DNA from: Liolophura sinensis
Lineage: Eukaryota > Mollusca > Polyplacophora > Chitonida > Chitonidae
Reading direction: 5' to 3'
NCBI RefSeq assembly: GCF_032854445.1
Contig: NC_088300.1
Span: 13,113,191 to 13,177,190 of the forward strand
DNA: 64,000 bases
This document shows positions 4,600 to 59,400 of the stretch, piece after piece. Position numbers and translations under genes: made by a program. Positions within the stretch are counted from its first letter, which is position 1. Every line of letters begins with the position of its first letter. The notes under the pieces are model-generated. The model was not told where the DNA came from, searched no databases, and was given only the letters and a program-made list of their open reading frames with translations.

Positions 4600-4818
4600 C
4601 TTAAAAGAGGAAGTTGTAACTTCCTGCCTTGGCGTTCAGTATAAAGCGGATAACTGGTTAACCCCTACCAGTATAATGGCTCGGGAGGGGCGCCTTACTT
4701 GCCTTTGGTAAGGCGTCTCAGTAAAGCAGCACTAGATACAAGAGCGGTGGAAATCCGTCCTGCAACAAGGAGGCACATTACATGCACTCTAAGGATTCCT
4801 TCGTCTCACTCACTCACT
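4600..4818 (+). mobile_element. SINE family A copy, diverged, internally deleted
   Basis: It carries the family-A body: TTAAAAGAGGAAGTTGTAAC, GGCGTTCAG, GCAGCACTAGATA, GAAATCCGTCCTGCAACAAG. It then jumps from GGATTCCTTCGTC straight to the CACTCACTCACT tail, so the usual 3' tail block (TTGAGTACGACG) is deleted. I found no convincing target-site duplication. The segment just upstream (about 4571-4600) may be a diverged head. Confidence 0.85.
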
Positions 4819-26811: not shown

Positions 26812-27060
26812 ATGGATTTGTGCACTGACACTAGAGAAGTTGAGGTCTTGAGCCATCCAGGAATGGAGGAAACGATTCAGCAATACACAGAAGATGATCC
26901 GTATGTCGCCCAACTCCAGGAAGTCTTCAACAGTTGTGATGTGAGTGGGAGTGGCTTCCTGGGGGAAGCAGAACTTCAGGGCCTGTGCTGCAAGCTGCAT
27001 CTGGAGAATGATTCAGAGTCGCTAATTAGACACCTGCTTCACGGGGATTCACTGGCAAAG
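26812..27060 (+). CDS. NINL: ninein exon 1 (coding): EF-hand 1
   Basis: 83 codons, ending K|GTATGT in phase 0. It contains YVAQLQEVFNSCDVSGSGFL, which strongly resembles the NINL N-terminus. An acceptor at 26802 (TATATTCAG) would start the exon 9 bases before the ATG. Translation may instead begin at 26863, which has G at -3 and G at +4. Confidence 0.93.
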
Positions 27061-30000
27061 GTATGTCAAGGTGACATGCTGGAAGCCTGCCCCGCATGCC
27101 AAAAATTCTTTTGGATGATTTACTACAGTCACTGTTTCATGAACATTATTTCTTGGTTTAAAATTTCACATTTTACAACTTGTACCCAGGCTCCAGGATG
27201 GCAAAGGATTATTGACTTAAGTCAAAAATTTCAGTCATTAAACTTGATGTGTTCCTTGCCGTCATTTTAACTGAAATGTGTATTACAATAACTTACTCAG
27301 GATTTACCTTGCCGAGCAACATTTTGACATTGTTACGTAAGAAATAACAATGATTATGTTAAAGTGATTTGAAATTTTGACTTGTGTTCAATATCGCTTC
27401 GTGATCCTTGGGCCCGGTGATCATAGGCTATGTTGATTGTCACAATGGTGATTTATGTTAAAACATATGTTGCCGTGGTGATTAATCGACTAAGCCAATA
27501 ACTGTTTTCAGTTTGTGCAAGAGGCCCCTGCACATTTCTTATTGGACCTTGTCTTAATACCACTATGTCAATAAACAATCTTTTGTAAGGTTTTTGGCCA
27601 AGTTAGTCAGAAATAGGGGCCATAGACATGTGTGGCGATTTTGTCTTATTTTCCAGGAAGATTTGGGTATTACTGTTCATATTAAAATGAAATAAGCCAT
27701 TGATCAGAATGCTCAGACCATGTGATTTATTTTTTCAAACTTTACTTTATGTTTTAAAATCATTGTTGGGTATAGTTATAAGAAATACACATTGATTTAT
27801 TTCTTTACAGGTTGACTTCAGAGCATTTAAGGAGAGGATTGTTCAATACTTGTGTGAGACAATGACAGACTGGTGTCCTGTGGTACAAAATGACTCCTTG
27901 CAGGAAACAGATTACACTAGTAAATTATTGCTGTTCTTTATTTATTTATTTTTTTGTTTCTTTTTTTTTAGAAGACTTTGTTTGACTTCTGGTTTTAAAC
28001 TGGTCTACTTAACTTTTAGAAAACATAGTTTTGAAAGTGGATATATTTCAAACACACATATGTCTCATTACCAGTGTTTTCCTCTTTATATTTCAGTGAT
28101 TATAGTACAAATTGTGATAGAAGATATCGTCAGGTGTGATTCATGTATCTGTATTAAAATCTGAGTTTTCAGGTTTCAGATGTGCAGAGATATGCCAAAT
28201 TTTCTGTCCAGAGAATAAGTGCAGTCTTGTCAAATTCTACTTTACCTTTCATGCACATTTCCAGCATTTGATTTTTTCACCTTTCGCTGTCCAAAACTGA
28301 TTTACTTTATGAAGTAGACAGGTTTTCCAACTTTTTGAAATTGCTTCACTGCATTTGTTTGTTACGTCCCAATAGCCATATTGTCGATCAAGGTGCTGCA
28401 AAATTGAACCCATAAAATGCCATTCCAACATGGTGATTAAAAAGATTAGTTTGAAATCTATTTGAAAATGTAGATAAAATCATCATCTAGAGCTGATTTG
28501 TTAAATCATGGCAAATAAACAGATCTAGTACTGAATCTTTTCACTGAACTTGACTTTTTGTGAAACAAGAGCTCTCTGCGTTATAATAATTCTTTAGATC
28601 ATTCCCTTTCAGGTATAAATGGTAGAAAACAGTACAAATTAGCCTTACCTAGACACAGAACAACAACCCTTACTGTTGAAAACAGCTGGAAAATCCCTGC
28701 AGATAATACAGTAAGTAATTAGTGCATGTGTAGTAATTATCCTTCACCTCATTTTGTTTTAATTTTTTTTTTTTAAGTTGCAATCAGATTGAATATGTTA
28801 AATAAGAAAAGCTTAATCATCCCAGCCAAGTCATTGGACTTTTAAGGTTTCAGTTGACTTGTGTTTAGTTTGCTATTTGTCTTCCCTTGTCACATGTACA
28901 GCAGATGTTGTGATCAGCTGTGCCGTTCATCTGTCTACCTGTTTGTGTGGTGTGCTGTCCACCTGTGTGTCTGCATTTGTTGGTAGCACAATTCCCCAAG
29001 TTACTGCTATAGTGCTTGTGTTTGAAGATAATATAAATATATGGACTTCAAATAAGGCAGGGCTTGTCAACACAATTTTAAACAGATAATTTTCGTGTAA
29101 CTTCGTAGAACTGGTTGGGATGATACGTGTGTTGTAGATGTGCTTGGATATTGCATGGGTAGCAGTTAATTAGTTGCTTCCATTTGAAGGTCGAATTTGA
29201 GAGCTTGTCAACACAACATCTTATAGAGCTTTAAACAACTTTGTGTAAATTATTATGGCAAATGTCTGAGGATGTGTATGGGTTTCATGTGTTTCAATGG
29301 ATCAGTTGTTTTTAAAGCTACTTTTATGAAATTGCAAGAAGGGATATGTCATTTTCAAGTGACGAATGGTTTAGGTGTATCTGCATACTCAGAAGTTTGC
29401 ATTTCGCAATTGCTATTATAGCAATGTCTGTTTTCATGATACATAATGAATGCCTGGTTTGCTCAAGTACTCACATAATGCTCATACATGTAGTAAGGTG
29501 TAAAGTGCCAATCAAATAAATAGGATACGTGGTGACGTAATAATCTCGATTTTTTAAACTGAATCATCTCAGGTACACACACGTGTACAAATGTTGATAG
29601 GTGTAAATGTTTGGATGTATGTATGTAAAACCATTCACTGTGAAATAGCACATGAAGAAATACTGTGTTTAGAATGAAGTTGTTAGCCATGTTTTTTTTC
29701 CTTTCACAAATGTCACTAGCCTCTTCCAGTCAGTTAAATAATTAGTCATTGCTAAAAGCTCTCTTACAGGTTCAAGCCAAATAATATTAGTTTGTGGGAC
29801 TGTTTCGTAACCACACTCACCAGGCGACTGTATAAATAGCTCACATACATGAAGTATTGACTTGTCTTCCCATTTCATCTCATATGACAAGTACATATGC
29901 TCAAAGCAGAGTTGGATATCTGTAAAATAAACACTGTACCATTTTAGGGGTGTTCAGATTTTGCTTACGTATAAATTCATGTAACATGTAAGTTGTGAGA

Positions 30001-33000
30001 CCTCCACAAAAAAATCATACAAAAAGTAATTGATTTAGTATTTATCTCGTGGACTCACATGACATACATTTGCAATTACTGGCAAGTACCTGGTTTCAAA
30101 AAGTAAATGTGTTTTCATCTGGCTTTCATAAACCTCTTTCTATAAAGGTGGAAATTCTCACTTCAAACACCAGTCGGAGAAGTAAATTAACATACTGGAA
30201 CTGATCTGTTACAGTTGTCGCATGGCATGGTAGCCTTTTTCTGCAAAGAGATTATCATTAGAATGGATTTATTATATAATAACCTGTTCAGTACATATCA
30301 CACTAGGTGCTACTGACAGTCGGACACTTTCTGATGTTATAAAAAGAAAACATCTGTGATTGTTTGACTGCTGTCAGTCAAAATAACTGTCAGTCAAAAT
30401 AAGCAGATCAGTTGCAGCTGATATATCAAGATATGTCAAGATATATGGGGCAGTGATCAGCCCAGTTTTCTTGTGAAGTATACAACTTTGAATAAATTGA
30501 TGTTTCGTTGCCATGGTTTTCATTGCTCTGACAATAAGTCAACCAAATCACATGTGAATAATTAAAACCGTATTCACAGGATATTTGCAGAATTTAACCA
30601 AATTAAATTGTGTGAAAATAGGTAAGTATCTTTAGATTTTTTTCCTATTTTAAATTTGGTGGCTTCAAAAGACTACATGTAGATCAAGCTGTAAATTAAA
30701 CCACTTAATCATGTTAATGCCTTAATTTGGACTGAACAAGTCAGAAAATACAGTTTATGTGTCAGAAAAATGAATTAAATTTTGAACGCGAATAATCAGT
30801 AAGATGATCTTACAAGGGAATATTATTTATTCTTTTTGTTCTTACAGAATCATTTCTCCTTTGGCATAAAACTCCAGATTGTTGAAATAAAACCAACTAA
30901 TTAGAAAACTGTCAAAATCCTGCATGAATAAGAATGGTATAGAGATAAATGAATATGTAAATGTAAGCCTGGGCATTCATCCTGCTGATATATCTGAGCT
31001 CCAATATTGACCCTAGAATTGTGCATGTGTGTCCCTGTATATCCGTGTAGCTATGGTAATAATGTTCTGCAGGGGGCTGTTGATATTGACCCTGTGTGTG
31101 AGCGAGCAGTGTGACAGGTGTTGTAGGCACAAGGCTGTGACTCAGTCACTCACATCTATCCTCACATACATACACACACACCACAGTTAGTGGTAGTGCA
31201 TCTACGGCCCCTGGGTGTGAACAGTCATGCATCCTCCGTGTGTACACACATGTACAGAACTTCAGTCATTTCTGCAGTGGTCTTTTTGATGAGAGACTGA
31301 TACTAGTTGCCCACCTTCATGTCATGTTCAAGTAAGATATTATTTTGTATTGGCACATAATATTCACACTGCCATGAATGTAGGCATCATAGGTTATCAT
31401 TGTCTACAGGACTACAATTTTGAGACCTTCGTTTCAGGGAAATTAGTTATGCATTTAAATCCAGTGAAAGACATGATGTTGATACTACTACATAGTTCTT
31501 CTGTTAAAGCCATAGGTTTAGTGAAATCAGCTGTATGTGTTTAAATACAGTTAAAGGTAACCAACATATACTACATCTTAGTATCATGGTTTGACTCTCC
31601 TGGGTTTAATCCAGGATCCCGAGACCCTGGGATCAAACCTGGGTCGGGTCATACCAAAGACTTTGAAAATGGTTCTTGCTGCTGCCTCGCATGGGACTCA
31701 GTACTGAGAGGTTACAGCAAGGAAACATGACTGGTTGGCCTGGTGTCAGTATGTGACTGGGTGGGTGTCATGTTTGGTGTTTTCGACATGATACTTCAGT
31801 GGTGGCAGCACTTTGGCAGCATGGACTTGTCCTGCCACAAGAAGACATAGTATATGTACACATTCCTCAAGGTTTGCCAGCAATCCGTGAATTGTCTTGG
31901 TTACCCCCTCCCCCCCTCCCTCCCCAGGTTTCCTCCCACCATAATGCTGGCTGCCATTGTGTAAAATATTTTTGAGTACACCAGTCACATAAATAAATGT
32001 ATTTAAATTCAGTGAAAGATTACCAACATATAATCCATCTTAGTATCATGTACATGCAGGTATACTGCCTTCACTGTACAATCCTTTGGTTAGGTTTTCC
32101 TGGAAGACTTTAATGACTCTGGACCATGGATGAGGTATATACATGTAGTGTAATAAAGTACCAAAGTTGCCAATTCTATTACCCTTGATTCCTTTTTATT
32201 ACATACAACGCACTGCTTGGCTCTATGCCAAGTGCACATTATCTAGGTCGTTAGATACCCCCCATCACGAGACAGAAGTGTTTGACTTCTGGATGGGTCT
32301 ATTGTACTTCTGTGGGTGGATATAGGTTGTTGTTTACATTGATTAAAGCAGACGACATATTTATTTTCTGTCGGAGCGAATGTTCATTTTAAAAAAGAAA
32401 AGTATCATGTTACAGATAATTTAAAGTCCATAATTTAAAGGGACGTTTGAATGCACAGGATGCAGTTTAATTTGTTGGTGACTTGCAGAATTTAACCAAA
32501 TTAAATTGTGTGAAAATAGGTAAGTATCTTTTCTCACCGAAGCCTACCCTGATAACAGAGATAATAATGGTTTCAAGAAATTATTTTTTTTTTACATACA
32601 GACCTGATAATTCTTCCTAAGAGTCAGTCTTTCAGCGGCCTCTCCTAAACGTCCCAGTTGACCACACACCATGGTATGGGAATCAACCAATGGGTCTAAA
32701 AAAGATCGGATCCATGATGTCTGATATTTCCCGCGATGCAAAACTTAGCCGCCGGTACACGAATCACTGCGTCTGGGTTATGACAGCCACAGTTCTTGAC
32801 AGCTGATGCCGGATTTTCTGTTATGGACATTAAGTCTCTGACAGGCCACCGCAATGAATCCAGTGTACGGAGTTATGTCACCAAACGGTCCATTTCAAGA
32901 CGCCGTGAAATCAGCATTATCCTGCATGCTTCAAGTGTGTTATCAGAAAATGCCAAAAGTGAAAATAATCCCATGTCAGTCACGCCACTCCCCGATGCTG

Positions 33001-36000
33001 TCGACTATGTTAAACGTAACAGTAGCAATACCATCCAAATGGCAAAATCCCAGTTTTCAGTCACACCTCAAAGTTTTGGAGGGCTGTTCAACAATGCAAC
33101 AATAAATAACAGCAGAGTTCACATCAACTTCACACCTCTAGACAGAGGTGTTAATAAGCATTAACACATATCTATGATGTTGTTATTGTTTTGTTATTTA
33201 TCAACATATGTTGATAAATTAATATTGAATTGAAAATGTGAACTGAAGTGTTCCATTACTTCAGCATTCGTTACCCAGTGTTTATGAATTTGATACAGAA
33301 TACAACACGACCGCAAAGCATTTACACAAGTAAACCAAATAAAATTCAGTATCAAACTATTGTTAACCTAATTTTGTGTGTTTCAGTTATTTTTTTTCAT
33401 ACGTAATTCAAACTTAAATTACGTTTAAACAATTGAGCTCCCCACTTTTGTTGTCGTTTTGCTGATGCCAGAGGTTTCCAGCTCCCTTAGCTTGTAAGAC
33501 AGAGTTTGGGAAAACTTTTTATCTGCCCGAACTCTCGCTTCCAGCAACGAGCGACCTCCCCGGCTCGCTATCAGTGTGGTCACTGTTTGACATCGTGCCT
33601 TTCTCACGGAAGCCTACCCTGATAACAGCGTCTTAGCTGAAATATGAAAGCCACCTTTGCAGATGTATTATTTTATAGTGCTATATTTTATAGTCGGAAT
33701 TGTTTTCGAGAAACAAACGTATTCTTTTCACTTTTCCATCCTAGTCATGAAGCACGTCCGTAATATTTAGCATCGCATTTTCACACCCCATGTAAAACAC
33801 ATTATGGTTTCGTCGAGAATTAGGTCGCCCCTTTATAACGTTCGGTTGGAAGAAAACAACGCGTCTGGGAAAGTGGAGGCGTTTTCTGCTGTTAATTTAT
33901 ACCCCAATGGCGTTTTTGTTATAATTAGGAAAACATTTTGCTGCTACCAAGGTAATAGAATAGAAATAATGTTCGCGTCAGGGTAGTCTAACGGTAGTTT
34001 TACATCAAATCGATGTGGAAGAGTTTATATTTTAGGTCGAAGGCGAAGCTCTTCCACTTCTGTGTCTTCTCTAAACTCTTTTACTTCTGTGTGTTGTACA
34101 TAAAGTTGATTGCAGACGAGCAGGCCTATTTCTCACTGTGACTGGTGGTTCCTGACTTACAGGTTAGAAGTCAGCACAATGATGGAGATGATGACAGATA
34201 CGGCCTGACTGACTGTATGAGGTCTAGATCCTGTTGACTATCACAGTGACTTGTGGTTGCTGACCTACGGGTTAGAAGTGAGCACAATGATGGAGATGAT
34301 GACAGATACGGCCTGACTGACTGTATGAGGTCTAGATCCTGTTGACTCTCACAGTGACTTGTGGTTGCTGACCTACGGGTTAGAAGTGAGCACAATGATG
34401 GAGATGATGACAGATACGGCCTGACTGACTGTATGAGGTCTAGATCCTGTTGACTATCACAGTGACTTGTGGATCCTGACTTACAGGTTAGAAGTGAGCA
34501 CAATGATGGAGATGATGACAGATACGGCCTGACCGACTGTATGAGGTCTAGATCCTGTTGACTCTCACAGTGACTTGTGGTTCCTGACCTACGGGTTAGA
34601 AGTGAGCACAATGATGGAGATGATGACAGATACGGCCTGACTGACTGTATGAGCTCTAGATCCTGTTGACTGTCACAGTGACTTGTGGATCCTGACTTAC
34701 AGGTTAGAAGTGAGCACAATGATGGAGATGATGACAGATACGGCCTGACCGACTGCATGAGCTCTAGATCCTGTTGACTGTCACAGTGACTTGTGGATCC
34801 TGACTTACAGGTTAGAAGTGAACACAATGATGGAGATGATGACAGATACGGCCTGACTAACTGCATGAGCTCTAGATCCTGTTGACTGTCACAGTGACTT
34901 GCGGTTCCTGACCTACGGGTTAGAAGTGAGCACAATGATGGAGATGATGACAGATACGGCCTGACCGACTGCATGAGCTCTAGATCCTGTTGACTGTCAC
35001 AGTGACTTGTGGATCCTGACTTACAGGTTAGAAGTGAACACAATGATGGAGATGATGACAGATACGGCCTGACTGACTGCATGAGCTCTAGATCCTGTTT
35101 ACTGTCACAGTGACTTGTGGATCCTGACTTACAGGTTAGAAGTGAACACAATGATGGAGATGATGACAGATACGGCCTGACTGACTACATGAGCTCTAGA
35201 TCCTGTTGACTCTCACAGTGACTTGTGGATCCTGACTTACAGGTTAGAAGTGAACACAATGATGGAGATGATGACAGATACGGCCTGACTGACTGCATGA
35301 GCTCTAGACCCTGTTGACTGTCACAGTGACTTGTGGATCCTGACTTACAGGTTAGAAGTGAGCACAATGATGGAGATGATGACAGATACGGCCTGACCGA
35401 CTGCATGAGCTCTAGATCCTGTTGACTGTCACAGTGACTTGTGGTTCCTGACTTACAGGTTAGAAGTGAACACAATGATGGAGATGATGACAAATACGGC
35501 CTGACTGACTGTATGAGCTCTAGATCCTGTTGACTGTCACAGTGACTTGTGGTTCCTGACTTACAGGTTAGAAGTGAACACAATGATGGAGATGATGACA
35601 GATACGGCCTGACTGACTGTATGAGGTCTAGATCCTGTTGACTCTCACAGTGACTTGTGGTTGCTGACCTACGGGTTAGAAGTGAGCACAATGATGGAGA
35701 TGATGACAGATACGGCCTGACTGACTGTATGAGCTCTAGGCCCTGTTGATTCTCACAGTGACTTGTGGATCCTGACTTATAGGTTAGAAGTGAACACATG
35801 GCTTGATCTGTTGATTTTAAAAGTGACGTGATTTCTGACTTACAGGTTAGAAGTGAACACAATGATGGAGATGATGACAGATACGGCCTGACTGACTGCA
35901 TGAGCTCTAGATCCTGTTGACTGTCACAGTGACTTGTGGTTCCTGACCTACGGGTTAGAAGTGAACACAATGATGGAGATGATGACAGATACGGCCTGAC

Positions 36001-39000
36001 TGACTGCATGAGCTCTAGACCCTGTTGACTGTCACAGTGACTTGTGGATCCTGACTTACAGGTTAGAAGTGAACACAATGATGGAGATGATGACAGATAC
36101 GGCCTGACTGACTGCATGAGCTCTAGATCCTGTTGACTGTCACAGTGACTTGTGGATCCTGACTTACAGGTTAGAAGTGAACACAATGATGGAGATGATG
36201 ACAGATACGGCCTGACTGACTGCATGAGCTCTAGATCCTGTTGACTGTCACAGTGACTTGTGGATCCTGACTTACAGGTTAGAAGTGAGCACAATGATGG
36301 AGATGATGACAGATACGGCCTGACTGACTGTATGAGCTCTAGATCCTGTTGACTGTGACAGTGACTTGCGGTTCCTGACCTACAGGTTAGAAGTGAGCAC
36401 AATGATGGAGATGATGACAGATACGGCCTGACTGACTGTATGAGCTCTAGATCCTGTTGACTCTCACAGTGACTTGTGGTTCCTGACCTACGGGTTAGAA
36501 GTGAGCACAATGATGGAGATGATGACAAATACGGCCTGACTGACTGTATGAGCTCTAGACCCTGTTGACTGTCACAGTGGCTTGTGGTTCCTGACTTACA
36601 GGTTAGAAGTGAACGCAATGATGGAGTCATGGCTTGATCTGTTGATTTTAAAAGTGACACGTGATTTCTGACTTACAGGTTAGAAGTGAACACATGGCTT
36701 GATCTGTTGATTTTAAAAGTGACATGTGATTTCTGATTTACAGGTTAGAAGTGAGCACAGTGAAGACAATGAAGACAGACATGGCCTAACTGACTGTATA
36801 GTACAACTTAAGGACCAGGAAACATTTGAAGCTGATGGTAAGTACATGTAAACTAAGACATCCTAGGTTGCCATATGCTTATTAAGTGCATTATTTTCAA
36901 CAGTTTTTCTGATGTGGGTGATTTATTGATTTGGTCAGAGCTGAGTATAGAGCGTGATCATCAGTACAGGTAAAGGCCATCACTGGGGTGTGATTTATGG
37001 CACTGTTATTGTAGGCCTCTTACTATCAAATCTCAAGTCTTCATTTAGACAGCCAGTAAAGAGGTACACCAGTGTCAAGACATCTTTGTTGTAAAAGAAG
37101 GTGAAATGATGAGAGATTGACATTCCTGCTTTGGTCTGTTGTGATGTCACATCATCGATTGCTGACGTATAGCTGCCAGTATCGCTGCACTTCCAAAAAC
37201 TAATTGCGTCATTCCAGCATAATGAGAGCCTTGAGGACGAGCTACGCAGAAGGCCCAAATAACATTAGAAGGCATCGTTTTCTTCTGTGACATTGCAATG
37301 TGTATGTGCTTCACATATGTTTTATGACCACACATGCATCAATAATTGTGATGTAATAAAGGAAAGAACAAATGAGTTCACAGCTTTGGACCATCTTAAT
37401 GCAGATGGGATGGAGTATGTTTAATGGTTCCCCATTGCCAAACTTGACGTCATATGTGCCGGTCACATGTAATAGTATCCATGTCAGGAAAATTTTATGG
37501 AAATTGCTAAAGATCTTGTTTTTGAGGACTCTTTAGTTTTTGAGGGCTCTTTAGTTATACGTGTTAAACAGTGTTATTCATCTTAAATCCTTTTGAAGCA
37601 TTGTGTCACCACTGTTCCATAGGATTTTCATCATATCATTTTAATACTTCTACCCAGTTTAATTGGAGCTGGAGTAAATGGTTTAGTGATTGTTTTGTGT
37701 CCACAGGTGAGCTAGAGATCAGGATGGGGGACGTGCCGCACCTTGAACCTGAGGATGAACCTCTGAGGGAGATATGGCGACATCTCAATCTCCACATTGA
37801 CCAGGATCTCACAATGGCTGATCTCAAATTGATCTGTGATCACATTGGGCTGGACATGCATCAAGAGGTCTGACAACTTCTACTCTAATGGATACAACTA
37901 TTTCATTAATTGCATTTTAAAACCTAGTACAATACTTTGCCAGTGCTATTGACGTAATGTTCTTTTTTCACAATCCCCCCATAAGTTAAGGTAAATTTCT
38001 GCTTCCAGTAAGCCCAATATTCTGTTAAAATTGCAGGCTGTACCTAGTTGCAAATGGGTTGTTGTCTGTTGATTCACCCACACTTAGTATAAATGCCTAT
38101 AAGCAGTGGATAGCACCGGTGATGTGGCTATTTGCCCAATCTATGAATGTTTGTTGACTACCACTGGTCATGCAGGTGGTTTTGCAGCTGGAACTCCTGT
38201 TTTTCTCCACCCATAGAACTGATCACCATTTTATGAATGAAAGACTCTTGAGTATGACACACAACAATCAAATAAATAAATATCTTTTTTAAAATTTTTT
38301 TTGTACAACAGAAGTTGTACATTCATAAGAAACTCGTTGCTGTCATGTCACTCCCAACTTTTAAATGCCACTGAAAAAGTTGAAGCGAAACCTTTCTTGT
38401 GAATTTCTTTTATGATGATGGTATTGTGTGTTTGCCTGCCTGAAGTTAAAAACCCCAAAAATTGAAATTGAGGTAAAACTAGGGAATAATTTCAGGGGGC
38501 TTCCTGTATGTGGTAAACCTGGAATACGTGTGTGCTCAGCACTTCCGCGGGTTAAGTGGAAAACGAAAGATACCATCATTATATTAGTCTTATGTGTTCA
38601 TTGTTTTTTTCCTGACATTATATTTTCTTTTTCCTTTGTGAGCAGGAGTTGGAGGACTTATTTAGTCGCCTGGATACTGATGGAGATGGGAGAATTGCCT
38701 TTGCTGAGGTTCACGAGGGTCTTTTTCAGCACGGTTTATCCAGTGGTCAGACTGATGAAACCTTCTCTCAAGACCCCCCATCTTTACCTCAGTCTAGTTC
38801 CCCCAAACGTCTATCCAGCCTCCCAGGAAGACTGTCTGGGCTGGATGACAGCCTTAGGAGCCAGCCCTCCTCACTAAGAGGGACACCTTGTGGGATCTTC
38901 TCAGCACTTGACACAGAGAAAACAGGGTGAGTGAAGCAAGGACTAGAACAAAATCTAGGCTGGATTTTTGTGAAATCTACACATCATTATTTGCCAGTTG

Positions 39001-41419
39001 AATTAATGAACTAGAAAATTCCAAGCCTATTTATATAATGACTGCAGCTGATTTGTCCTGAAAATTTTAGCTTTGTGTACTTACATGCGTAAAAGTACTT
39101 CATATCTCGTCTCCACTTACTTTGTGGTGTCTAAGGGTCAGCAGTAGTCTAAAGGCCATTTATGTGGTCTTACATGAACTTGCATCAGCTGCCACAAACC
39201 AGTATAGCCTACACACTTACATGTAACTTGTTGTGTGTTTGTTTGGAAGTGTGTCAGTTGCTTGCCAAAGGTTGGCCACTTACTATTGGCATTCCGATTT
39301 TCTTCTCCCTTCAAACTGTGATAACAAATCCTCTTGAGTATGATGTTAAACACCAATCATTTTGTCATTTGTTGTTATATATATGCAAGTGTTTTATTGT
39401 TTATCTCCTGTCTCCTGTAACTTGCAGGCAGTGTTTTGCCAATGAATTACTTGAGTACTGGGAATCACTTGGGGTTTCACATGGAGAGGAGATCCTCATG
39501 GTGAGAATTATTGTCCTAATCAAAAGACGAAAGACAATATTTTGATACCTAGTATGTATTTACTGTTACACTTTTACAGTGTAGATTCAACTTGATGTGT
39601 ATGTTGCTAGTTTTGTTGCAGACAGGTGTTTTTGATTTTCTGTTAGCCTTTCTAAACTGAATATGCTTTGGCGTTATTAATATTTGAGTGATAACTGAGA
39701 GACTTGTGTCACAGTATTTTATGTCCTGTCTATATGGTAATATGGTGTTGTTGGACTATTTCTTGTTTCAGGATCTAGGGTTTGATCCTCACAGTACCAG
39801 TAAAATCAGCCTGGGAGAGCTTTCCTTCCTCCTCACACAGGAGATGGCAGGGCTTTCTAATCAGAGTGGCAAGTTCCAGGCAGCATTTCTTTCTTACCAG
39901 CAAGAGTTCAGCCATTACAGGTTAGTGGTACTTCTGGGTACAGCTAGAATATAGACTATATGGCATTCCAGTGATGTTGATAGGTTTTCATTGAAATGAG
40001 TCGGTGAGACCCACAGGTGGCTGAATGAAGGGGCCCCTTGGAGAATGAGTGGGTCCAGAATAAAACAGTTTTCTTTGGGATTAAACTCGTGTTTGATTTC
40101 GTAATTTTAATAATTATTTGGATAGGTGATGATTGAAGCTATGAACATGAGATGTCTTCTGCGCCTGATAGATGCCCTATGAGGACCATAGTGTACACCT
40201 TAGTGTGAGGTATAGATGAGTTGTACACCCCATCTATATTATCTGTGGTGTACTGTACCTCAAGTACACCTCAGCCATATGTTTATATCCCAGATGTACC
40301 TCAGGAACTTTGAAAAAAATCAACACTTTGAAGATGTACTTGAAATACTTCAAGAGTGTTTGAGCGGTTTGTGAACAAGAGGTAATGTACCTCAGGTACA
40401 CCTTAAAAGCTTTGAAATTTAAAAAAAGTAATTTAATTAATTTTGAAAATTGCTGGTCTGAAAAGAATCTGGTCATGAGGTTCTGCTTCACACTGTATAA
40501 AGTATCAGCTGGACAGGATTTTGGTTAAATTTTCACATGCTCACCCCCTCTGTACAGGATCTGAAAATGCAAACTGTTGACTAATTTAAGTCATCCTGTA
40601 GCCCTCACAAAATGTTTGACAAATGTTTACTTTTTATTTGTTTTATTATAAAGACCTAAGAATATGTATTTTAAGAATTGCCAAATATTGGGTGACATAA
40701 TTTAGTACTGCAGTCTGATCAATGTTGAGGAAGGTTAATTGTGATCAGTCATTTAAGCAGTATTGTGCTCTCTTGTGCAAAAAAAAAGAACAACCTACCT
40801 AACCTTTTGTTATAAAGGGCTTGTAACATCAAACCAACAATATTGGTATTTTAGCCTTAGTTTACAAATTTTTATATAGAAGTTAAAGGTTTTTTTGTGA
40901 TGATGTTTAAATGATGAGTTTTTGTTCACTCCTCAGTGTATTAATATGCAATAACACGCACTGCAGAGATGTATATACACTGTACTGGATTCCCTTGACA
41001 CTTTCTTTTCTAGGATTTTGCTGGAACAGTTAACTGCAGAGCGAAAGAAACTAAAGAAAGACCTGGTTGATGCTAACAACAGAAATGACCTGCTGGTAAA
41101 AGAGGCGGATGAGCGTCATCTCAAAATTGACCAGACAACAAAAAGCCAAGTGTTGTGAGTACTTTTTTGCACGCTTAAATATTTCCGAAAACACTTTTGA
41201 AGAAATAGCTCAAAACCCACATTGTTTTCTGATTGTGACACCAACTATAGTACCAGGGATTCAAATTTTTATAACCTGAAACTCAAAATTGAGTTTTTAC
41301 CTGGTCAAGATTGAGTTTATTTATATTTTAAACACTGACTAAAACCTGGTCTTGAGTTTAATTCCGCTTAAGTGACCGGTAATTTTTGTGAACATGAAAG
41401 TATATGTATGATTATTTCG

Positions 41420-44400: not shown

Positions 44401-47400
44401 TCATATACACAGAATTACATTCCAACAAAATGGAATGGAGCTGTGATTAAAGTTAGAACATCAATGCGCATTTGTCCATGCTAGTAAACAGTTTTTGAAA
44501 AAGTATATGAGAAAGACATCCTGTGACACATTCTTGCGTTATTCATTACCCACCCCATCCCTGGACGCTCCTCGAACTTCTGGTCTGAATCCCATATTCG
44601 TAAGAAAGTCAAGCTCCATTTTTCATTCTATTCTGAGGGGCCTCTATGGTTCAGTTGGGTAGCATGCTAGCGCAGCGTAATGACCCGGGAGCCTTTCACC
44701 AATGCGGTCGATGTGAGTTCAAGTAAAGCTCATGCTGGCTTCTTCTCCGGTCGTACGTGGGAAAGTGTACCAACAACCTGCAGATGGTCGTGGGTTTCCC
44801 CCGGGCTCTGCCCAGTTTCCTCCCACCATACTGCTGGCCGCTGTCATACAAGTGAAATATTCTTGAGTACGGCGTAAAACACCAATCAAATAAATAAATA
44901 AATCATTCTATGATGTTGATTTAGTTCAACAAGAGTTGATTCTGGTTTCAGTTATCAGAGGGGCAGTCTCCAGACGATGTACCTGGTTTTAGTCCGGCTA
45001 CGCTCCAACAGCTACAGCAAGAAAACAAAGTGAGTATTGACTGAGATAATGCGGGATAAAGCTGTTATAAATTGTAAATGTTGGTAAAGACAGTCTATGA
45101 TGACACAAGTAGGCTTATTTCCCAAAATGATGCTTTAAAGATGTATGTGATAAGGCCTGTATAGTCTTATGAGAAGGCAATCAGCGGATGTAATCAGTGT
45201 GGTTATATATTCTGATTTAGCTGCTGTCATTCTTTAAAAGGTATTGTTTCCTCGTAATATAATAGCTTTTACGTTACCATTTCCCTTTTTGTCTTCTCCT
45301 TGCAAAACCAAACACGGAAATCAATTCTACATTATTTAATGGTTGTTGATCTTCTTGTACCTGTTTTCATAACCTTAGGGGCTGAAGGACAAGTGTGATG
45401 AGCTGATGACAGAGGTAGAGAGGTTAAGACAGGAGTTAAAGACTGCCAGACGTGCCAGTGCGAGTCTAGTGGGGAGTGAGAGGGCCTCACCAAGCTCCAA
45501 GAGGAGGAGACAAGTGTCCATAGGTACACCAGTCAACTTCTGATGTTACATAGTTTTACATTTCTTAGATTTCGTATTTCGTTTTTTCAAATAACAGTTC
45601 TTGTTATGTACAACCATTCCATTGAATTTGGCTAGTGTAAAAACAGTGCATCAGTTCATTACAGTGATTTTTATCTAATTCCCATTCTCGGAATGACTAT
45701 CAAATGAGTTTGTGGAAACGCACCATAAGTTTGAAACAGTTTTACACTCTCGGCCATTCATCATGCAAAGTTAGAGAAGGATAGGCACAAGAAAATGAAA
45801 ACTCTATAGTGAACATTGTTCTGATGATTCTCTTTTGATCTGTACATTCTGGTTAAAGTTTCCTTTTTCCTGACTCTTTCCTCATTACCTGCATGTGCAT
45901 GTAGTGAGAGATTTGCCTGTAAGTGGTTAGTAAGAGTTTGACTGACTGTTGTCAGAATACCTGACCAATGAGGAAGCAATGGATGAGGACGACGACTCAT
46001 CATTCCTGCCATCAGCAACCAAAGGTAAAGCTTATTTTTGGGTGTGCTCACACTGTTCATCTGAAATACGGCTAAAATTGTCTCTTAATCGTTTAATTGC
46101 TTCATTCTTCATTTAGGCTTCATTCTTCATTTAGTCTTGAAACTTTAGCAATGGATGAAGTATACATTCCCGTTAATGTGTTGTCTTTATTGTTTGATTC
46201 AAGCATTATGCCCTATAAACTTGAAAAGGTTTGCCTGACTGACTTCACAAATCTCGCAGCTCTAAACCTCGGTGTACACACCTCTGTTTATTTTATTCAG
46301 TATGTAATTTTAAATTTTAACTTTGTGTCATATTTTAGATAATTTATTATATATATAAAGGTGAAATGTCAGGATTTCTGTCACGGATAAAAATGATATC
46401 TCACTGACTAAAGTTAGATATCACTTTTGTTTTTACACACCCCAACGCCATGGCGTCATGAAAAAATATTTTGCTTTATTACGTTCCGATTGAAGCTTGG
46501 CAGAATGACGCCATAATACAAGTTCAGTCAACGTAAACGTTTCTTATGTTGATCGCATGATTGTGAGAACCTGGCAGAACCAGGTTTTGTCAGAGATGGA
46601 CTCTCCTGTAGCAAGAATCCCTCTGCATATATTTCCCTATTTCCCTGAAAGCTGACTGGATATCTGTGATAGAATCTGGTTGATGCAATTGTTTTCTCAG
46701 GACCAAACTTCTCGCTGTGGAAAACTGAGTTCATTTCCCAGAGGTCACACACCTTCTAGTAATTTTCCATCTGCATATTGGATCAGTCTTCCGTATCATT
46801 TCCTGTACACATATAATAGGCGATGCCACCCTCTCCACAGAACCTGACTCTCATCTGCTGGAGCTGGTGAAGGAGTTAGAGCAGCTGAAGAACAACTTTG
46901 AGCTGGAGAGGAGAGACATTGAGGAAGCCTTCAAAATGGAGATAGTGGAGATAGAGGAACGTCACGATAAGGACCGCAAGCAACTCCTCAGCTCATTCGC
47001 CCAGGAAAAGGTTAGGAAAGATACTGCATTACTGTTTCATTATAAGCTCATCGTCATGAAGTACACCGAGGTTCATGTATATTATTGAATGCGAGGGGAA
47101 ACATGTCAGCTGTCCAGTCCTAACCCTTGTGATGTGTTTTATGGCTTCATTTGGGTAAATTACAGAAAACGACTGTTTTGGAAATAAACGTAATCTGCAC
47201 CTTTTAGTTTGGTTTGACATGCAGAGGAATGTATGTGTTAATTTTTCTGTATATATCTTCATGTGTGTCTGACAGAAATGAAAACTTAAAATTAGCTTTA
47301 CCTTATTTCCATTCACGCACATGGTAACTGATATTTCAAGAAACAGCATACATATATTTTCCAGTCCGTTTTGCCGAGGCTTGATTTTGTAATTCGTGTA

Positions 47401-50400
47401 CGGTAAATGATCTAAAGTTTCCCACGTGAGTTTCTGTTGTTTATTTTCACACAGTATGAGTTGGAGGCATGATGACAGAGGAGAGTGATAGCCCCTCACC
47501 CTTTCATTACCCTGCGTGGCGCTTGGCAGTTCTGGCTGCTAATCCTCGCAATGTGGGGTCAAGTCACTGACAGTGAGGTGTACAGGCCTCTCGACTTGTA
47601 GACCTACATGTGCATCTCTAAACATTCCCATGAATGAAACTGAAGAAAGTATCAAGACAGGCATTGTCTGTTACAAACCTTTAAATTTCAAACAAGGAAT
47701 GTACATGTACAATGAACTCTGCAGACGAACCGATTATTGGGGTTAGGCCTACATGGAAGTCACCTTGCACCATTATCTGGCACTCAGTTGTCTACTGAGA
47801 GCTGTCATTATGCAATGAATATGTGTACAAATGTATTTCATCTAAAAACGAATTTCACTGAGAACTATTTGTTATCAGCTTCCCGTGTCCATGTAATTCC
47901 AATATAGTACCGGTAGGTCCGTCTACATGCACATTTTGTTTTGTTACGATTGAAACTGCCCTCCTATTGCAGAAAAGTTACATTTTCTACGTTTTGAAAT
48001 CGGGAACTCTCCAGAAACACAGAAAACATAGTTTCCAAAAACAACAACGATTGACTTTGATCCCTTTTCGGTAGCGCTATATCGAATCAGACAGGATTTG
48101 TCCATATAGCTGACAGCTTAGAAGTTGACACAAATCTGACTGGCTGTATATCATAATAAAGTACATGTTTTATGATTACCAGTATGCAAATGTTCCCATA
48201 TACTTGTAATTGTAAGTTGACGCTCTAAATGCTGTTTGAGTCATCATCTGTTGGTAATTGGCAAGGAAATGATTTGCTGGGCGCTATGTTCTGTTATGGC
48301 TGTGTACATGAAAGGCTCTGTGTGCATATTAACAGATACTTGACATGCCACTCCACATGGGTAAAGGTACTGTGTGCTCATGCTCACGCTCCTCCATCTC
48401 CAGGAATTTTTTCCCTGAATTCCCTGTCATCATAAAATGGCGATCATAAAACAATCAAGATTCAGCTTCTATGAGGTAAACCTTTATGTACTAAATTCAT
48501 TATGTATAAAACTAAGGAAAACATGAACTGTTCGTGGCAGGAACGTAGACTAACTGCAAAGTGAAGTGTGAGCTTATTACATTTGGGGACAGTCCACATA
48601 ATTCCCTGACCACTCTCGATATTTTCCCGCGGTGTCCAGTTAGTAAAAACCACAATCAGCACCATGAATCCTGGGATACACTCTCTGAGTCCCAGGGCGA
48701 CACTTAAGGTCATTTACTGTAAATTTGATAAAAAAAATATCGGGCAGGAGAGAGTAATCAGAGGAGCGGCATTTCTTCAAGGTGGCATCACCGATGCCTG
48801 CCCCTTGTTACGTGACTGTACTGTATCAACAACAACGTTCTTCAGGCCTAATATAGCTTAGTCATGTTGTGATTGGTTGAGTGCTTGTTATCCAGTCAGA
48901 ATTTGCGTTACTAATTTGCGTGGCAGAACAAAATTGTGTTCAGCGTTATCTGCATGAAAAATCCGCGTAAAAAGGATCAAATTTCTGACCGTGGTGTGAA
49001 AAACAAATTCTCATGGTCGTGGCTGGAGAGATCTGTTATTGTTAGGGCAAAAGTAGGGGAAAACATCCAGGAAGTAGTAGAAAAGTTGGCAGATTTCATA
49101 GCCAAATGCGACGTGCCAGGGGGAAAAAAGCAGTGTAGTTACTGTAATGACGTAATCAGTTATGGATGGAGGTGATGTGCTGCACTGACAGAGCATGTCA
49201 CTCAGAGCCAGAAACGTGAACACGGTGTCAATACGAACGACAAACTACTCCCAGGGTTCAGCCTTCAAACTTCAGCCTACAGCAACAACAACAACAACAA
49301 CAACAACAACATGCAACATATAATTTAATTGTATAGACCATAAATTGGAATGGACAAAGATCAAACCTTTTGAACATAAATAGTAAGTAATCTGTTATCT
49401 TAGTATAAATGTAAATGCAATTTGGTTGCCTGTTAAATCTTGATTTCAGGTACATACATAACTTTATGTTGTCTAAATTGCAAAACTTGGGTCCTTAAAA
49501 GCTTAAATGCCTGGAACTTCTGGGGGCCGTCCCACTATCCCCGCCCAACTCCCCCCCCTCACACACACACACACATAGACACACACACCTGCACCCTCCA
49601 ACAAGTTCCGTTCTGGATCCAGCTGGAGGCCGTTGTCCCCTTGACCCCAGCTGAATTTCCAACTCGTTCACATCCCTGTATGTTTAATTCAACTCTGTGG
49701 ATTTGTAGGAAAAGATGAAAGAGGAGCTTACCTCTGCGCACCAGGAGAAGTTAGCTGAGCTGGAGCGAAGTCTACAGAATGAGTTTGCCACAGTAAAGCA
49801 GGACATGATTTTGAGACATGAGTCAGAGAAAAACTATATCCGTGTGAAGAATGAAGAGGAGAAAGAGGAGATGGCCAAGGGGTAAGAATATTAACATTTG
49901 ACGCCCTGATCTGATTAGCACAGCTTGAGTTTTGCCATTCTAAGCGGAGCTTGATGTGATGGAATATTAAGACAAAACTTGTAGAGAGAGAACTAAGATT
50001 TGTAATTTTTGTCTGCATGGTGCCTTCTGCTTTGACTGAGGATCTCTGTTTGTATAATATTAGGAAGAGAGTCCCTCAGAAGGTGCCCCTGGTAGAATAT
50101 TTGTACCTTTCTCTGCTCTCACATGGCTTGGCTGAGTCTTCAAGGTAAATTTTGACAAAACCTGCTTGGTGCACGATGGATAACTTCTTGCTGCATAACC
50201 TATACCATTTCATGTATAACCAGGTGTGTAGGGCAGCCAGCACATGGTGTACAGGTGTATAGGGCTGTCAGCACAAAGTGTACAGGTGAATAGGGCAGCC
50301 AGCACAAGGTGTACAGGGCAGTCAGCACAAGGTGTGCAGGGTTGTCAGCACAAGGTGTGCAGGGTTGTCAGCACAAGGTGTGCAGGGTTGTCAGCACCAA

Positions 50401-53400
50401 GTGCATAGGGTAGTCAGCTCCAAATGAACAGGGCAGGTAGTGTGCACCTTATGCACAGGTTAGTCAAGACCAAGTGAACAGGGCAGTCCCCAGCTCCAGG
50501 TGAAAAGGTTAGTCTGCACCAAGTGCTCAGGGTAGTCAAGACCAAATTAAGAGGGCAGTCAGCAGCACCAGGTGAACATGGTACTCTGCACCAGGTGTAC
50601 AGGGTAGTGTGCACCAACTGTACAGGGTAGTCAAGACCAAACAAACAGGGCAGTCAGCAGCACCAGGTGAACAGGGTAGTCTGCACCAAGTGCTCAGGGT
50701 AGTCAAGACCAAATGAACAGGACAGTCAGCAGCAGCAGGTGGACAGGGTAGCCTGCACAAGGCAGTTAGCAGCAGCAGGTGAACAGGGTTGTCTGCAGCG
50801 GGAGCACAGGGTAGTCAGCAGCAGGAGCACAGGGTAGTCTGCACCAGTTGTACAGGATAGAACAATTTTTTGAAATGGCGATAAAATTCGAAAATATGCG
50901 AATGATTTTGGTGACGAATTTATTTACCAAAGAAAATGTAGAAACGCTATACACTAATTACCTGGTGAAGTTTTCCTAGTAGTTTTCAGGCATGAGAGTT
51001 TTCTGTGGTTTTATGTGTACATATATTTTCACTATTTTTCTGATGAAAACAATCCATTAACTTTTATTTCAAAGGGCTTCATTTCGGCAAAACAACAAGA
51101 ACACAGTCACGGTGATTTTAATGGACTAAAATCTACAAAGAGGGTTCAGCATTCTTGGAAGTTACCCTAGATAATGCTTGAGAATCATTTTTGTTAACTA
51201 ATGAATGAGAATCATGGCATTTTGGGGGATGCCTTTCATAGCCAAATCTAAAGAAAAACAATTAAATTAAACAAAAAGATTATTAAGGGAGATAAATATA
51301 GATAGTGTTAGATGTGTAAATGAAGTTACCTCCCTTGACATTTAACCCTTCCACCCTGGGACTACATTTACAAATTTATTTTGTAACAAATTTTTATGAT
51401 TGAGGAAATTGCATTTTAATAGGACCCTACACAGGTAAATTGATAAAAGGTTTGATTTTTTTCAAAGAACGGAAACACTCTGCCATTATTTTAAGGGCAA
51501 TAGCTCTAAATGTGGCATGGGATGTACTCCAGATATAGTTGGAAGAGATCAAACTGATTCTAGCAGCTTTACCAAGGCAGATAAAACGAATTACAGACGG
51601 AGACCACTAAGAGTCGTAGATACTGCTCCCATTCAGTCAGTTGAAGGTCACAAAGATTAAGTCAAGTATTTGAAAGTATTGACCTGACACAGATACGTGT
51701 ACCTCCAATTGTTTTTTCTTGTTTTAAACATAACAAGCAAGGTGTTACAGATATTTGCTTAATTTGTTTTATTTAATCCAACAGTGAAATTTTAGGCTTT
51801 TTTGTGCATATACGTACAGGCCTACATGTACCCACCTGTGTGAAATTGTCAAACATTTTTATAGTATTGATCAAAGGAATGTTTGAAATCACTACCTGTT
51901 GTATGAGAATCATCACATTTGATTTGGTTTGTATGTATTATCACATTTGACTTCAGTTTCACACACACAAACATATAAATATATATATATATTTTTTTTA
52001 TCATTTACCTATCATCATGTGATGTTGTCCTTCAGGATGCAGGCAGACAGAGAAATGAAAGAAACTCAAGTTGCAGTCATGGCTTCTGATAAGGTATGGT
52101 TGCTTATAAATTATTAAGCAATTAAAACATTACAATAGTTGCAGAATATTGTCTCATACACGTGTGCACAATGCAAGCTCAGTTTGGTAGTTTTTGAGAG
52201 GGCACACTCTTAAAACATGTCTAAGCCATTGTGCACTTTACATGGTATAAGTACAAATAGCATCTTCCAGCTTGTTTAGCTTCAACTTTGTCAGCTTGTC
52301 AACCACAACTTTGTCAGTTTGTCAGCTAATTTGACTGCCTTTGTACCTGTGAAACATTCCTGAGTATGTTCCAAAACAAGATTTAAACAAATAAAATACA
52401 AAACAGAATGGTACATGTAAGATATATATGGTGGTGTATAACTTCCATTGTGATTTCGTTTGACTTGTTCACCAAGTTTCTTTTTTGTAAAGATACATTT
52501 TTCTCCAAGCACGTGGCTAGTAATCAGTTAAATCTTATGTATAAAAATATATAACAACAGAATATAATATGATATATAATATTTGTGAGCTTTATAACTG
52601 GTTTGTTTGCAGTCTTCCTATGTAATAAAATGATGTACATGCACATCATTTTAACATTGTTGGCTGTCAGGTGAGTCTCAGTTATTAGCTCAGATTCTCA
52701 TGGAGCTGAGTAAATTAAATAGTGAAGTCTGTGTAGTTCATCCCTACATGCAGTTTCTTACATTGTATGTTTTCAAGGGCAGGCGTAGGTCTTCAGTGAG
52801 TCAGTTTGCGGAGGATTTAGGGAGAGAGAAGGCTGTACTGCTGGACCGCTTTTTGAAGGAGAAGAGAGAGCTGGAAGAGGCCCATTCTCAGGAGAAAGCT
52901 GCTCTCTGTGAGTTCTTCTGGTCTTCTGGGCAGTGTATGGTGTGGAGTCGATGAAACTATTAAACCCTGTCCCACCATAATGCTGGCTGCCATCGTATAA
53001 GTGAAATATTCTTAAGGGGAAAACTTGAATCAAATGAATACATGCGATCAGATCTGGTTAACCTTTATTGTTGGATTGTGTCCACACCCTTTGTTCAGTC
53101 CAGTGTAATCACTTTCATTATTACTCAACCCAATGCCATGACTTCAAAAAGAAACATTTTGTTGTATGATGTTCTAATCCGAGCTTAGCAGAATGATGTC
53201 ATCATACCAGTTTAGTCAACTTTAACATTTCTTACATCATGCAACAAGACACAACATCACGTCTAATGTCACACTATATACACAAGCAGAGATTCATACA
53301 TGCGATTTGAGACTGGGTGTTCAGTGGTTAAATTGAGTTAAAAACTGAAACCTCTGGTTACAAAAACTCAGTTCTGTGTTTTTCTGGTACAAATACTCAA

Positions 53401-56400: not shown

Positions 56401-59400
56401 TTCAGTGTCGTGATTAGAGTTGGATAAACTTCCTGTGACGTCAGCGGTCCCAAACTGTGGTAGTATGGTCGATATAGCCCACCTTAGAATTCAAATGTTT
56501 CAATGCCTTTAACTCTTTTCACAAAAATCTAAAAAATAAATGAAAATATCACTGTGCATAGTTTTCAATGGTCTAGTTGGTGATGCCTACTTAGACTTTA
56601 GAGGTTTTTTCCTTTAAGATCATGAGGGTCGCCTTTATCTTTTCATTATCATAATTCTGTGAAAACAGTGAGCATCAGTGCACTAGCCATCTCTATTCTA
56701 CTTGCTAGTAATACATGTTTTCAAATTCATCATCCCTGTAGTTCCCATGTCATAGATTCACTTTGACACCTTTATTGTTGGCCAGGAACTTTTCATGGCT
56801 TCATTAGTATATCATTTGTATCCATTACAGGAATTTAGGGTAATTTAAACACATACACTAAATTTGATTCAGGTGAATAATTTTTTTCAGCCTGAAAATT
56901 TAGTTTATTTACCTGTGAAGTGTTAAAATCAGTCTTTGACGTACTGAAGTCCTACTCATACATTAATCCATTGAACTCAGCTTTTAACTTTTGAATATGT
57001 CATTCATCTGTTAGAAATTCATGTACATGTATCAGTTGAACATATACATACCTGAGTTGTTGAATGATCATTGTCGTGTTGAAGCCTATTGGTGACTTGT
57101 TGAGATCCTTCATTGTTCTGTGGAAGCTTGTTACTGACCTACAGTGTACTTCTCCTTTCCTCAGGAGAATTTTGTGTCTCAGATTCTGAAGATGCAGACT
57201 GAATTTGACGAACAGAGGCATCTGATGGAAACCAAACAGAGGCAGACTGAGGAGGACCTGGCAAAGGTCAGACAGGTGGAGAGAGAGCTGAGAGAGATAA
57301 ATGAGACCCTCAGGCAGTCCAATACACAGGTCAGTAACACGGTCCATGAAACCCTTAGGTAGACCAATACACATGTTAGTAACATTGTCTATGAAACCCT
57401 CTTGCAGACCCAATACAACAGCCAGTACCGCAGTTCATAAAACCCTCTTGCAGACCAATACAGGGGTTAGTAACACAGTCCATGAAACCCTCAGACAGGT
57501 CAGTAACACAGTCCCTGAAACCCTCAGAAAGTCCAATTAGACAGGTTAGTAACACAGTCCCTGAAACTCTCAGACAGTACAGTACACAGGTGAGTAACAC
57601 AATCGATGAAACCTTCAGACAGTCCAGTACACAGGTCAGTAACACAGTCCATGAAACCCTCAGACAGTCCAATACACAGGTCACTAACACAGTCCATGAA
57701 ACACTCATACAGGTCAGTAACACAGTCCCTGAAACCCTCAGTCCAATCAGACAGGTCATTAACACAGTTCATGAAACCCACAGACAGTCCAATCAGACAG
57801 GTCAGTAACACCGTCCATGAAATCCTCAGACAGACCAATCAGACAGGTCAGTAACACAGTCCCTGAAACCCTCAGACAGTCCAATCAGACAGGGCTGGAC
57901 GTGTTAGAGATGTCAGACTCCTTAAGTCGGACTTGTTATAAGCATAATTGATGAATAAAAATGATGTTCGAACATGTTTAATCATGGAATTTATTTTCAA
58001 CTTCAATTTGGCTTTAGGTCAGGAGGTTTTTCAGACATGATGATGAGGTCAGGTATTTTGCCAGGTTTTAGATTTGTAGATGTTAAGTACTGGCAGTGTA
58101 CTGGGTGCCAGTGTGACGAGTGTGGTGGCAAATGTGGTATACTCCACCTTGAAATACTAATGTGGATTTTGACATTGATTATGTAGTTCAGCTACATCGA
58201 CCTCTTCGTCTGTTATTGATACAGCTTATGACGGATTTGGCAAGGTTTAAAGACAATCTGGAAAATGAGAAGACGAAGTTGAGAAGAGAGCAAACTGAGT
58301 ATAATCGGGAAAACATTGAGCTTGAGAGAGTGAGAAAAGAACTGGATCGTGTGAAAAGGACGCTGGAGCAGGAAAGAGCTGATGTAGCCAAAAGGGAGAG
58401 AACTCTGCATGAACAAAAGCGAGCTGAGCATACCTTGTATGAGGATAAAGTGGATGAGTACCAGAAAAACATGGAGCAGTTGATTGCTGACAGAGACCGA
58501 GCCTTACAGAGCAAGGCAAGAGGTGAAGAGCTACTAACAGCAGAAAAGGTGAGGAACGTGAAAACATTTTATTTGCTTCCAATGCTATATCTTGCCCATC
58601 CCTTTTAGCCTTGTGTCTTTTTTACACCTTCACAAGGTATTTACTTTAGCATTTCAAATATGGTTATCTGAACTTTAGGGTTTCATTATCACAGAAATAA
58701 GTATAGAATTGGTTTTGTTGGCCGTCTTGCATAGAAGAAGACTTCTCTGTTAATATTTACGTGAACATGCTGTACCATTGTTACCTGGTGAAGGGTGGTG
58801 GTATAGTGTAGGCACTCCGGTTTTTCACCACCAACTGACCTGGCCAACAGACTATTAAAGAGAACAGTCCTAGGAGAGGGTTCCACACTAGTTAAGTAAG
58901 AAATTAAACAAAAAACAAACAAAAAATACCTCACATCGAATTTCTTATTACAGATTTTAAGTGGAAGACCATTTGATCTTTTTATCAGTTTATCACAAGA
59001 TTTTGTCTTCATTATACAGCATGGCTACCAGAAATTGCTGGAGGACAAGCAAAGTTTGGAGAGTCAGTTGAGGAGTTGTATGGAGGAGTTAAGCCGAGGC
59101 CAGACATAGCCATCAGCAGTTAGATGCCACACAAACCCAGGTATGTCACAATAAGAAATCACAGAACTTGTTTCGTAAGGAAAATTTACCTGTGCACTGT
59201 TCAGCTTAGGAGTTGTGCAGAAGAGGTAAGCCAGGCAGTTAGAGACGACTCAAACCCATGTACATGAATGTTACAACTAGAAATCACAGGTCATCTTTCA
59301 GAATGAAAATTTAAAAAATCATTGAAGGGGTTAAAAAAAAAAAAAAGCACACTCACTCTGAATTCCGAATTGGACAATTTTTTCTTATACATGTTTGTGC

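Follow-up and report, generated by a model that had tools for sequence, protein, structure and literature searches.

The exon 4 array and its host gene

The window, by which we mean the whole stretch of 64,000 nucleotides analysed here, comes from the chiton Liolophura sinensis (contig NC_088300.1, positions 13,113,191 to 13,177,190 of the forward strand) and contains a gene that we take to be ninein from its similarity to the vertebrate protein. Intron 3 of this gene ends in a long tandem array built from the end of the intron and the start of exon 4, and this array is the subject of the present work. Exons 1–8 (26863 to 39920) form one open 387-codon frame with phase-compatible splice sites, some of which are weak, such as the donor of exon 2 (3.7 bits). 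A pair of EF hands was identified by Pfam in the joined frame; the Pfam and PDB searches showed EF hands only, and not the identity with ninein. Because the frame is open, exon 4 fits the transcript. The initial annotation had placed exon 4 in a ninein transcript; the exon stands, and the name is a presumed one.

The anchor sequence GGTTAGAAGT occurs 26 times on the plus strand of the window, with exon starts from 34163 to 36744. The last occurrence is the true acceptor of exon 4 at 36744, and the remaining 25 are copies, all of them upstream of the exon; none was detected downstream. This agrees with the initial annotation, which described a minisatellite derived from the acceptor and exon start of the gene itself, with the real exon as its last member. 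The anchors are spaced by 108 bp in 22 cases and by 63, 77, and 65 bp once each, compared with the 108 bp, and 64 bp in some units, given earlier. Tandem Repeats Finder (TRF) reports two rows of period 108, one of 15.4 copies with a score of 2884 and 95% matches, the other of 7.4 copies. The exon-like part of the unit consensus consists of its first 56 bases, of which 47 are identical to exon 4 and nine (16%) differ; this part is somewhat shorter than the ∼65 bases proposed. The 3′ part of the unit can be aligned with the final 46 bases of intron 3.

The AG dinucleotide is kept in 18 of the 25 copies and replaced by GG in the other seven (numbers 2, 3, 5, 8, 15, 18, and 23). Together with the real site this makes 19 AG acceptors, which matches the earlier count of about 19 AG and seven GG. 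All seven GG copies share the context GACCTACGG, and the GG may represent one mutation that was copied around.

Alignment of the units, which had been suggested as a means of dating the expansion, gave a mean pairwise difference of 5.0% among the 22 complete 108-bp units and of 4.3% between neighbours in the list. Adjacent 108-bp units are more alike than in random order (permutation P 0.038), and the edge units are distinct, with two odd-length units at the exon end and a third inside the array. Given the 5.0% difference among units and the 9/56 difference between consensus and exon, the seed seems to be old in comparison with the copies now present, on which homogenisation or a renewed expansion would have acted. 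In the three odd-length units the TTT tract seen in the real intron is preserved, and these units may stand nearest to the original duplication. On the minus strand, the array is crossed at 34171–36672 by two long open frames, of 337 and 495 amino acids, probably because the period of the array is a multiple of three.

Tandem arrays are prone to assembly errors, and a short duplication could have been inflated by the assembler. We regard this as barely credible, since 19 of the 22 108-bp units are distinct (three pairs are identical), three units are of odd length, and the window is without any N. In addition, a whole-genome DNA search with 501 bases covering the array end and the exon gave this locus alone among the best candidates, which are all that the search scores, so that absence elsewhere is not proven by it. 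The assembled copy number could nevertheless be off.

In two reports on amphioxus (PMC3087553, PMC3902484), minisatellite-like tandem duplications of exon-intron boundaries are named mirages, and this term is used below. The positions of the features are collected in Table 1.

Table 1. Exons and boundary-derived arrays of the presumed ninein gene, in window coordinates
Feature	Position	Strand	Basis
Exon 3; ends in phase 0; donor ACA|GTAAGT, 5.8 bits	28613..28710	+	open frame and splice sites
Probable acceptor-type mirage; 25 tandem copies of intron end and exon 4 start	34131..36743	+	repeat and alignment
Short 63-bp unit; ∼15 bases from the exon start, followed by an intron end that has the real intron's TTT tract	35783..35845	+	
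Units of 77 and 65 bp adjoining true exon 4; intron end resembles the real one	36602..36743	+	
True exon 4; phase 0 in, phase 1 out; donor ATG|GTAAGT, 11.5 bits	36744..36837	+	
Exon 5; carries the open frame on into the EF-hand pair	37707..37867	+	
Exon whose 3′ end and donor seeded the donor-type array	57165..57329	+	
Donor-type mirage; ∼45-bp units of exon end and CAG|GTCAGTAAC	57301..57893	+	TRF period 45

Splice-site strength and the outcome of decoy use

Splice sites were scored with a matrix of 52 donors and 58 acceptors of this genome, taken from ninein and nine chaperonin-family genes. The training set consists of hand-picked chaperonin boundaries and 32 ninein sites, and donor scores include the scored site in the matrix. 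The acceptor of exon 4 scores 10.2 bits when its own site is left out of the matrix (12.0 bits when it is included), which corresponds to the 66th percentile and is the highest value of the 26. The AG copies score from 6.0 to 10.0 bits, between the 24th and 60th percentile of this genome's own acceptors, and the GG copies at most 2.8 bits. By this matrix, the 18 AG copies are ordinary acceptors.

When exon 3 is joined to each copy, an in-frame stop follows in all 25 cases, as the initial annotation had predicted. The stop comes after 24 codons in 21 copies, after 28 in copy 9, where TGA is changed to TTA, after 7 in copies 16 and 25, and after 11 in copy 24. The earlier claim that none of the copies has a good donor proved partly too strong. 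AG is directly followed by GT in 18 of the 25 copies (AG|GTTAGA), and the copy boundary CAG|GTTAGA, read as a donor, scores 7.3 bits, which is the 21st percentile of the 52 donors and above the donor of exon 3 (5.8 bits). The in-frame stop expected of a poison exon is present in 25 of 25 joins; the flanking sites of such an exon would be AG acceptors of 6.0–10.0 bits and a donor of 7.3 bits, which may or may not be strong enough for use.

An AG directly followed by GT is also what is seen at recursive splice sites, which act as ratchet points or zero-length exons. In a recursive ladder, each AG|GT copy would regenerate a donor on joining and be spliced onward, copy by copy, to exon 4; the GTTAGA right after AG in 18 copies and the 7.3 bits of CAG|GTTAGA fit such a scheme. 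However, because exon 3 ends in ACA, the donor regenerated by joining it to any copy reads ACA|GTTAGA, which scores 1.1 bits and lies below all 52 reference donors. Unlike at recursive splice sites, the regenerated donor is thus very weak. An escape from the stops by recursive splicing was rejected on this score, and we consider the ladder highly improbable.

A donor-type array in the same gene

The same gene contains a second array, of the donor type, which starts at the end of its seeding exon (Table 1); the last exon bases and the donor are repeated downstream. Four copies of the boundary are found at 25 of 30 matching bases and six at 22 of 30, and GT is present in all six.

TRF detected further minisatellites in the window at 8022–8733, 50221–50860, and 62167–62573. 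None of the 32 boundaries tested in ninein is spanned by either of the latter two, and the first lies in a region without a placed gene model. An in-frame 24-bp minisatellite encoding QLTPEIRK-type repeats is situated at 55915–56066 within a predicted coiled-coil exon of the same gene. Similar peptides occur in translated frames at 31746–32039, 44696–44907, and 54014–54250, which suggests an interspersed repeat family in the introns of the gene.

Survey of splice boundaries in 40 further loci

Boundaries in 40 other loci of this genome were surveyed using 30 bases across each boundary (15 + 15), with further copies counted at 25 of 30 matches within 2.5 kb. The samples were nine chaperonin-family genes, 13 proteasome regions, and 18 myosin and tRNA-synthetase regions, together 238,840 bases and 226 boundaries. 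The family matches used were 47 of 50 (one of the 47 outside the stretch taken), 21 of 21, and 68 of 105, the last being compact clusters picked by coordinates before their DNA was seen. The 78 chaperonin boundaries were hand-picked and scored with a generic splice matrix. In the automatic third set, sites below 4.5 bits were dropped, leaving 60 acceptors and 51 donors from 68 exons. The AMP-binding family was left out because many of its matches look single-exon.

Arrays of this kind were found at 11 of the 226 boundaries, at 9 of 107 donors and 2 of 119 acceptors (Fisher P 0.027). The positive boundaries comprise 3 of 78 in the chaperonin sample, 1 of 37 in the proteasome sample, and 7 of 111 in the myosin and tRNA-synthetase sample. 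A matching TRF tandem row is present at all 11, and when overlapping TRF rows are merged, 10 of the 71 arrays belong to positive boundaries.

These numbers bear on the possibility that splice junctions are preferred seeds of minisatellite birth, through a mutational bias and not simply by chance in a genome rich in repeats, which would be compatible with a mirage origin of the ninein array. Random placement of the 71 arrays gives 2.8 expected straddled boundaries against the 11 observed (P 7e-5 for at least 11, 2e-4 for at least 10). The third set alone gives 7 against 1.5 (P 0.0004). Arrays away from boundaries are barely nearer to them than random placement would have it, with 19 of 61 non-straddling arrays within 200 bases of a boundary and 14.5 expected. 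On the other hand, the first and second sets alone are weak, with 4 against 1.3 (P 0.03); under stricter earlier cut-offs the expectation was 0.8 (P 0.004), the array and margin cut-offs of the seed-placement simulation having been loosened between the first and later runs. The boundaries of the first set were picked by hand, not all exons are detected, and the difference could lie in how well arrays persist once born and not in where they are born. A first control also ran contrary to enrichment at boundaries: 1957 of 10755 intronic positions (18%) and 109 of 281 GGTNNG sites (39%) have a local copy, both rates exceeding the 5 of 110 boundaries of the same run. This control was judged unfit because it counts each position in a long array, and the seed-placement simulations were used in its place. 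Arrays away from boundaries showed no surplus of donor-like motifs, with 3 of 21 in the sense and 2 of 21 in the antisense orientation. Taken together, we consider a bias toward junctions to be less likely than not.

The largest array of the survey precedes a myosin P-loop exon (L032, G000:C2:5375600-5380000; TRF array 1546–2906) and contains ∼50 decoy acceptors in steps of 32 bp, 47 of them with AG, and thus more decoys than the ninein array. The count of 50 was obtained with a 19 + 11 window chosen after the 32-bp unit had been seen; the standard 15 + 15 window gives two copies. A chaperonin exon (L011, G000:C8:53403700-53413200, donor 7227 in gene orientation) is followed by ten decoy donors that score like the real one. 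The first unit of this array is open in frame, so use of the next donor would insert 22 residues without a stop.

Another locus (L034, G000:C11:2675000-2684600) holds an 82-bp × 12.7 array at 4168–5211 in gene orientation, whose unit contains AAG|GTGAGT. The stretch before this motif resembles a myosin peptide when translated. The array is possibly another donor-type mirage, at an exon without a family-search match, and the survey may therefore undercount. Separately, seven COX1 matches ∼15.5 kb apart were noted on G000:C99, which probably represents head-to-tail mitochondrial genomes on one contig, an assembly concatemer.

Position and conservation of the decoys

The 11 survey arrays and the two arrays of the ninein gene together contain 139 decoys on the intron side of the boundary; over 3 kb on the exon side no decoy was detected. 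AG or GT is kept in 126 of the 139, and in many cases decoy donors match the real donor in strength. Ten arrays have four or more decoys, 134 in all, and in these the dinucleotide mismatches the array consensus at a rate of 0.049, compared with 0.044 at the other 18 positions. The pooled decoys show no sign of being either kept or purged.

These data bear on whether the ninein array serves as a dosage or tuning device, in which decoys would capture splicing, the stop within 28 codons would lead to nonsense-mediated decay, and array length would set the output of the gene. The stop in every join, the 18 copies with a plausible acceptor, and the moderate donor (7.3 bits) at the end of the 108-bp unit before an AG copy would all suit such a device. 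We consider it unlikely, because the AG and GT of the pooled decoys vary like their neighbours, AG is lost in 7 of the 25 ninein copies, and the same build recurs at many unrelated boundaries.

Proposed origin of the exon 4 array

We think it likely that the exon 4 array is a mirage, in which a tandem duplication across the intron 3/exon 4 boundary seeded a minisatellite that was kept intronic with its decoys silent. The duplicated segment would have spanned the boundary, and growth in copy number and homogenisation would have proceeded by unequal exchange or slippage. As the AG copies are ordinary acceptors, exon definition would most likely be what keeps them silent, by pairing the strong donor of exon 4 (11.5 bits) with the nearest acceptor, 94 bases upstream. 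The true acceptor, which scores slightly above all 25 copies, may further help the spliceosome to ignore them. Under such a rule, the spliceosome would use whichever copy is closest to the opposite exon end. The position of donor-type arrays, downstream of the real donor, and that of acceptor-type arrays, upstream of the real acceptor, would follow from it. The array itself probably does nothing for the gene, although it is conceivable that some splicing goes to decoys and the product decays.

Several observations weigh against this origin. With the AG copies between the 24th and 60th percentile, weakness alone fails to explain their silence. Acceptor-type arrays, to which the exon 4 array belongs, are rarer in the survey than donor-type arrays (2/119 versus 9/107). 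At one locus (L029), the intact decoy donors outscore the presumed real site, with a median of 8.6 versus 5.7 bits. Finally, in the ninein acceptor array taken alone, the AG mismatch is 0.14 compared with 0.022 at neighbouring positions. This excess could reflect selection against working decoys, and it could also come from one copied GG mutation.

The initial annotation had offered three roles for the array: tuning of exon 4 inclusion, generation of premature stops, and tolerance through exon definition. Tolerance now appears the most likely of these. A special tuning or stop-generating device found no support, given the same build at 11 of 226 boundaries, the neutral AG and GT of the pooled decoys, and the earlier description of such arrays in amphioxus.

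We put forward, tentatively and as less than an even chance, that minisatellites arise preferentially at splice junctions, chiefly at donors, such that about 1 in 20 junctions carries from one to about fifty decoys on its intron side. If this is true, the genome is a natural experiment on how the spliceosome chooses among near-identical sites, and mirages arise in distant animal lineages and are no peculiarity of lancelets. One-sided, near-identical decoys would test exon definition in vivo, because position separates the real site from the decoys where strength often cannot. If the frequency holds genome-wide, the birth of minisatellites at exon edges would generally give rise to mirages, which would offer a way of lengthening introns and supply material for new exons or introns. 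There is also a warning for annotation, since gene predictors may call decoy copies exons; the authors of the PGBD5 report suspect this for exon 5 of the lancelet gene (PMC3902484).

Comparison with known systems

Intron gain by tandem duplication offers a contrast with the chiton array. As described in one paper (PMC4974935), new AG and GT sites arise when a segment with AGGT is duplicated in tandem, with examples in ATP2A1, potato RdRp, and 24-bp repeats of fission yeast. Unlike this mode of intron gain, the seed of the exon 4 array spans an existing boundary and its copies enlarge an old intron; as judged from the DNA, the array is contained in intron 3, the frame continues from exon 3 into exon 4, and an additional intron position is not apparent. 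Human segmental duplications likewise contain internal tandem repeats at exon-intron boundaries (PMC2812944). The chiton arrays resemble these in being minisatellites at exon-intron boundaries. According to that source, the human repeats can form new introns or alternative transcripts in primate paralogs, whereas the frame of the chiton gene appears unchanged.

The closest likeness is to the mirages of amphioxus, of which the first report is said to be that of Canestro in 2002. In the ninein array, the units span the boundary, the exon edge stands at the end of the array, AG/GT is retained by many though not all units, and the units have evolved in concert with distinct edges. The globin report (PMC3087553) describes 5′ and 3′ boundary types, AG or GT that is kept by many units and missing from others, clusters whose inner units are homogenised and whose edge units differ, haplotypes of six and three units at BflGb6, and RT-PCR (reverse transcription PCR) that suggests undisturbed splicing. 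In the second report (PMC3902484), the PGBD5 mirage has 60- and 108-bp units, and Adh and TnC are cited. The chiton arrays are like the mirages of Adh3, the globins BflGb6 and BflGb9, TnC, and PGBD5 in that tandem units span the boundary, both boundary types occur, AG or GT is present in many though not all of the units, and the inner units are homogenised with different edge units. They differ in their mollusc host and in size, with 25 copies in the ninein array and ∼50 in the myosin gene, compared with the six and three of BflGb6. Amphioxus was rejected as the host, since one 11-kb cluster of the genome holds eight hemocyanin beta-sandwich domains (PF14830), a molluscan type. A GFP-family match was absent too, which counts for little as the control of that search gave none either, and the mitochondrial COX1 reads through eight in-frame TGA codons, which suits a mollusc but does not decide the matter. 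Literature searches on repeats at splice sites showed, under the name mirage, amphioxus only, and the accessible part of a paper on Conus introns (PMC3862624) mentions microsatellites and not splice-site repeats. The ninein array is known in kind, as a probable mirage of the amphioxus type, and what is new is the frequency of such arrays in a mollusc.

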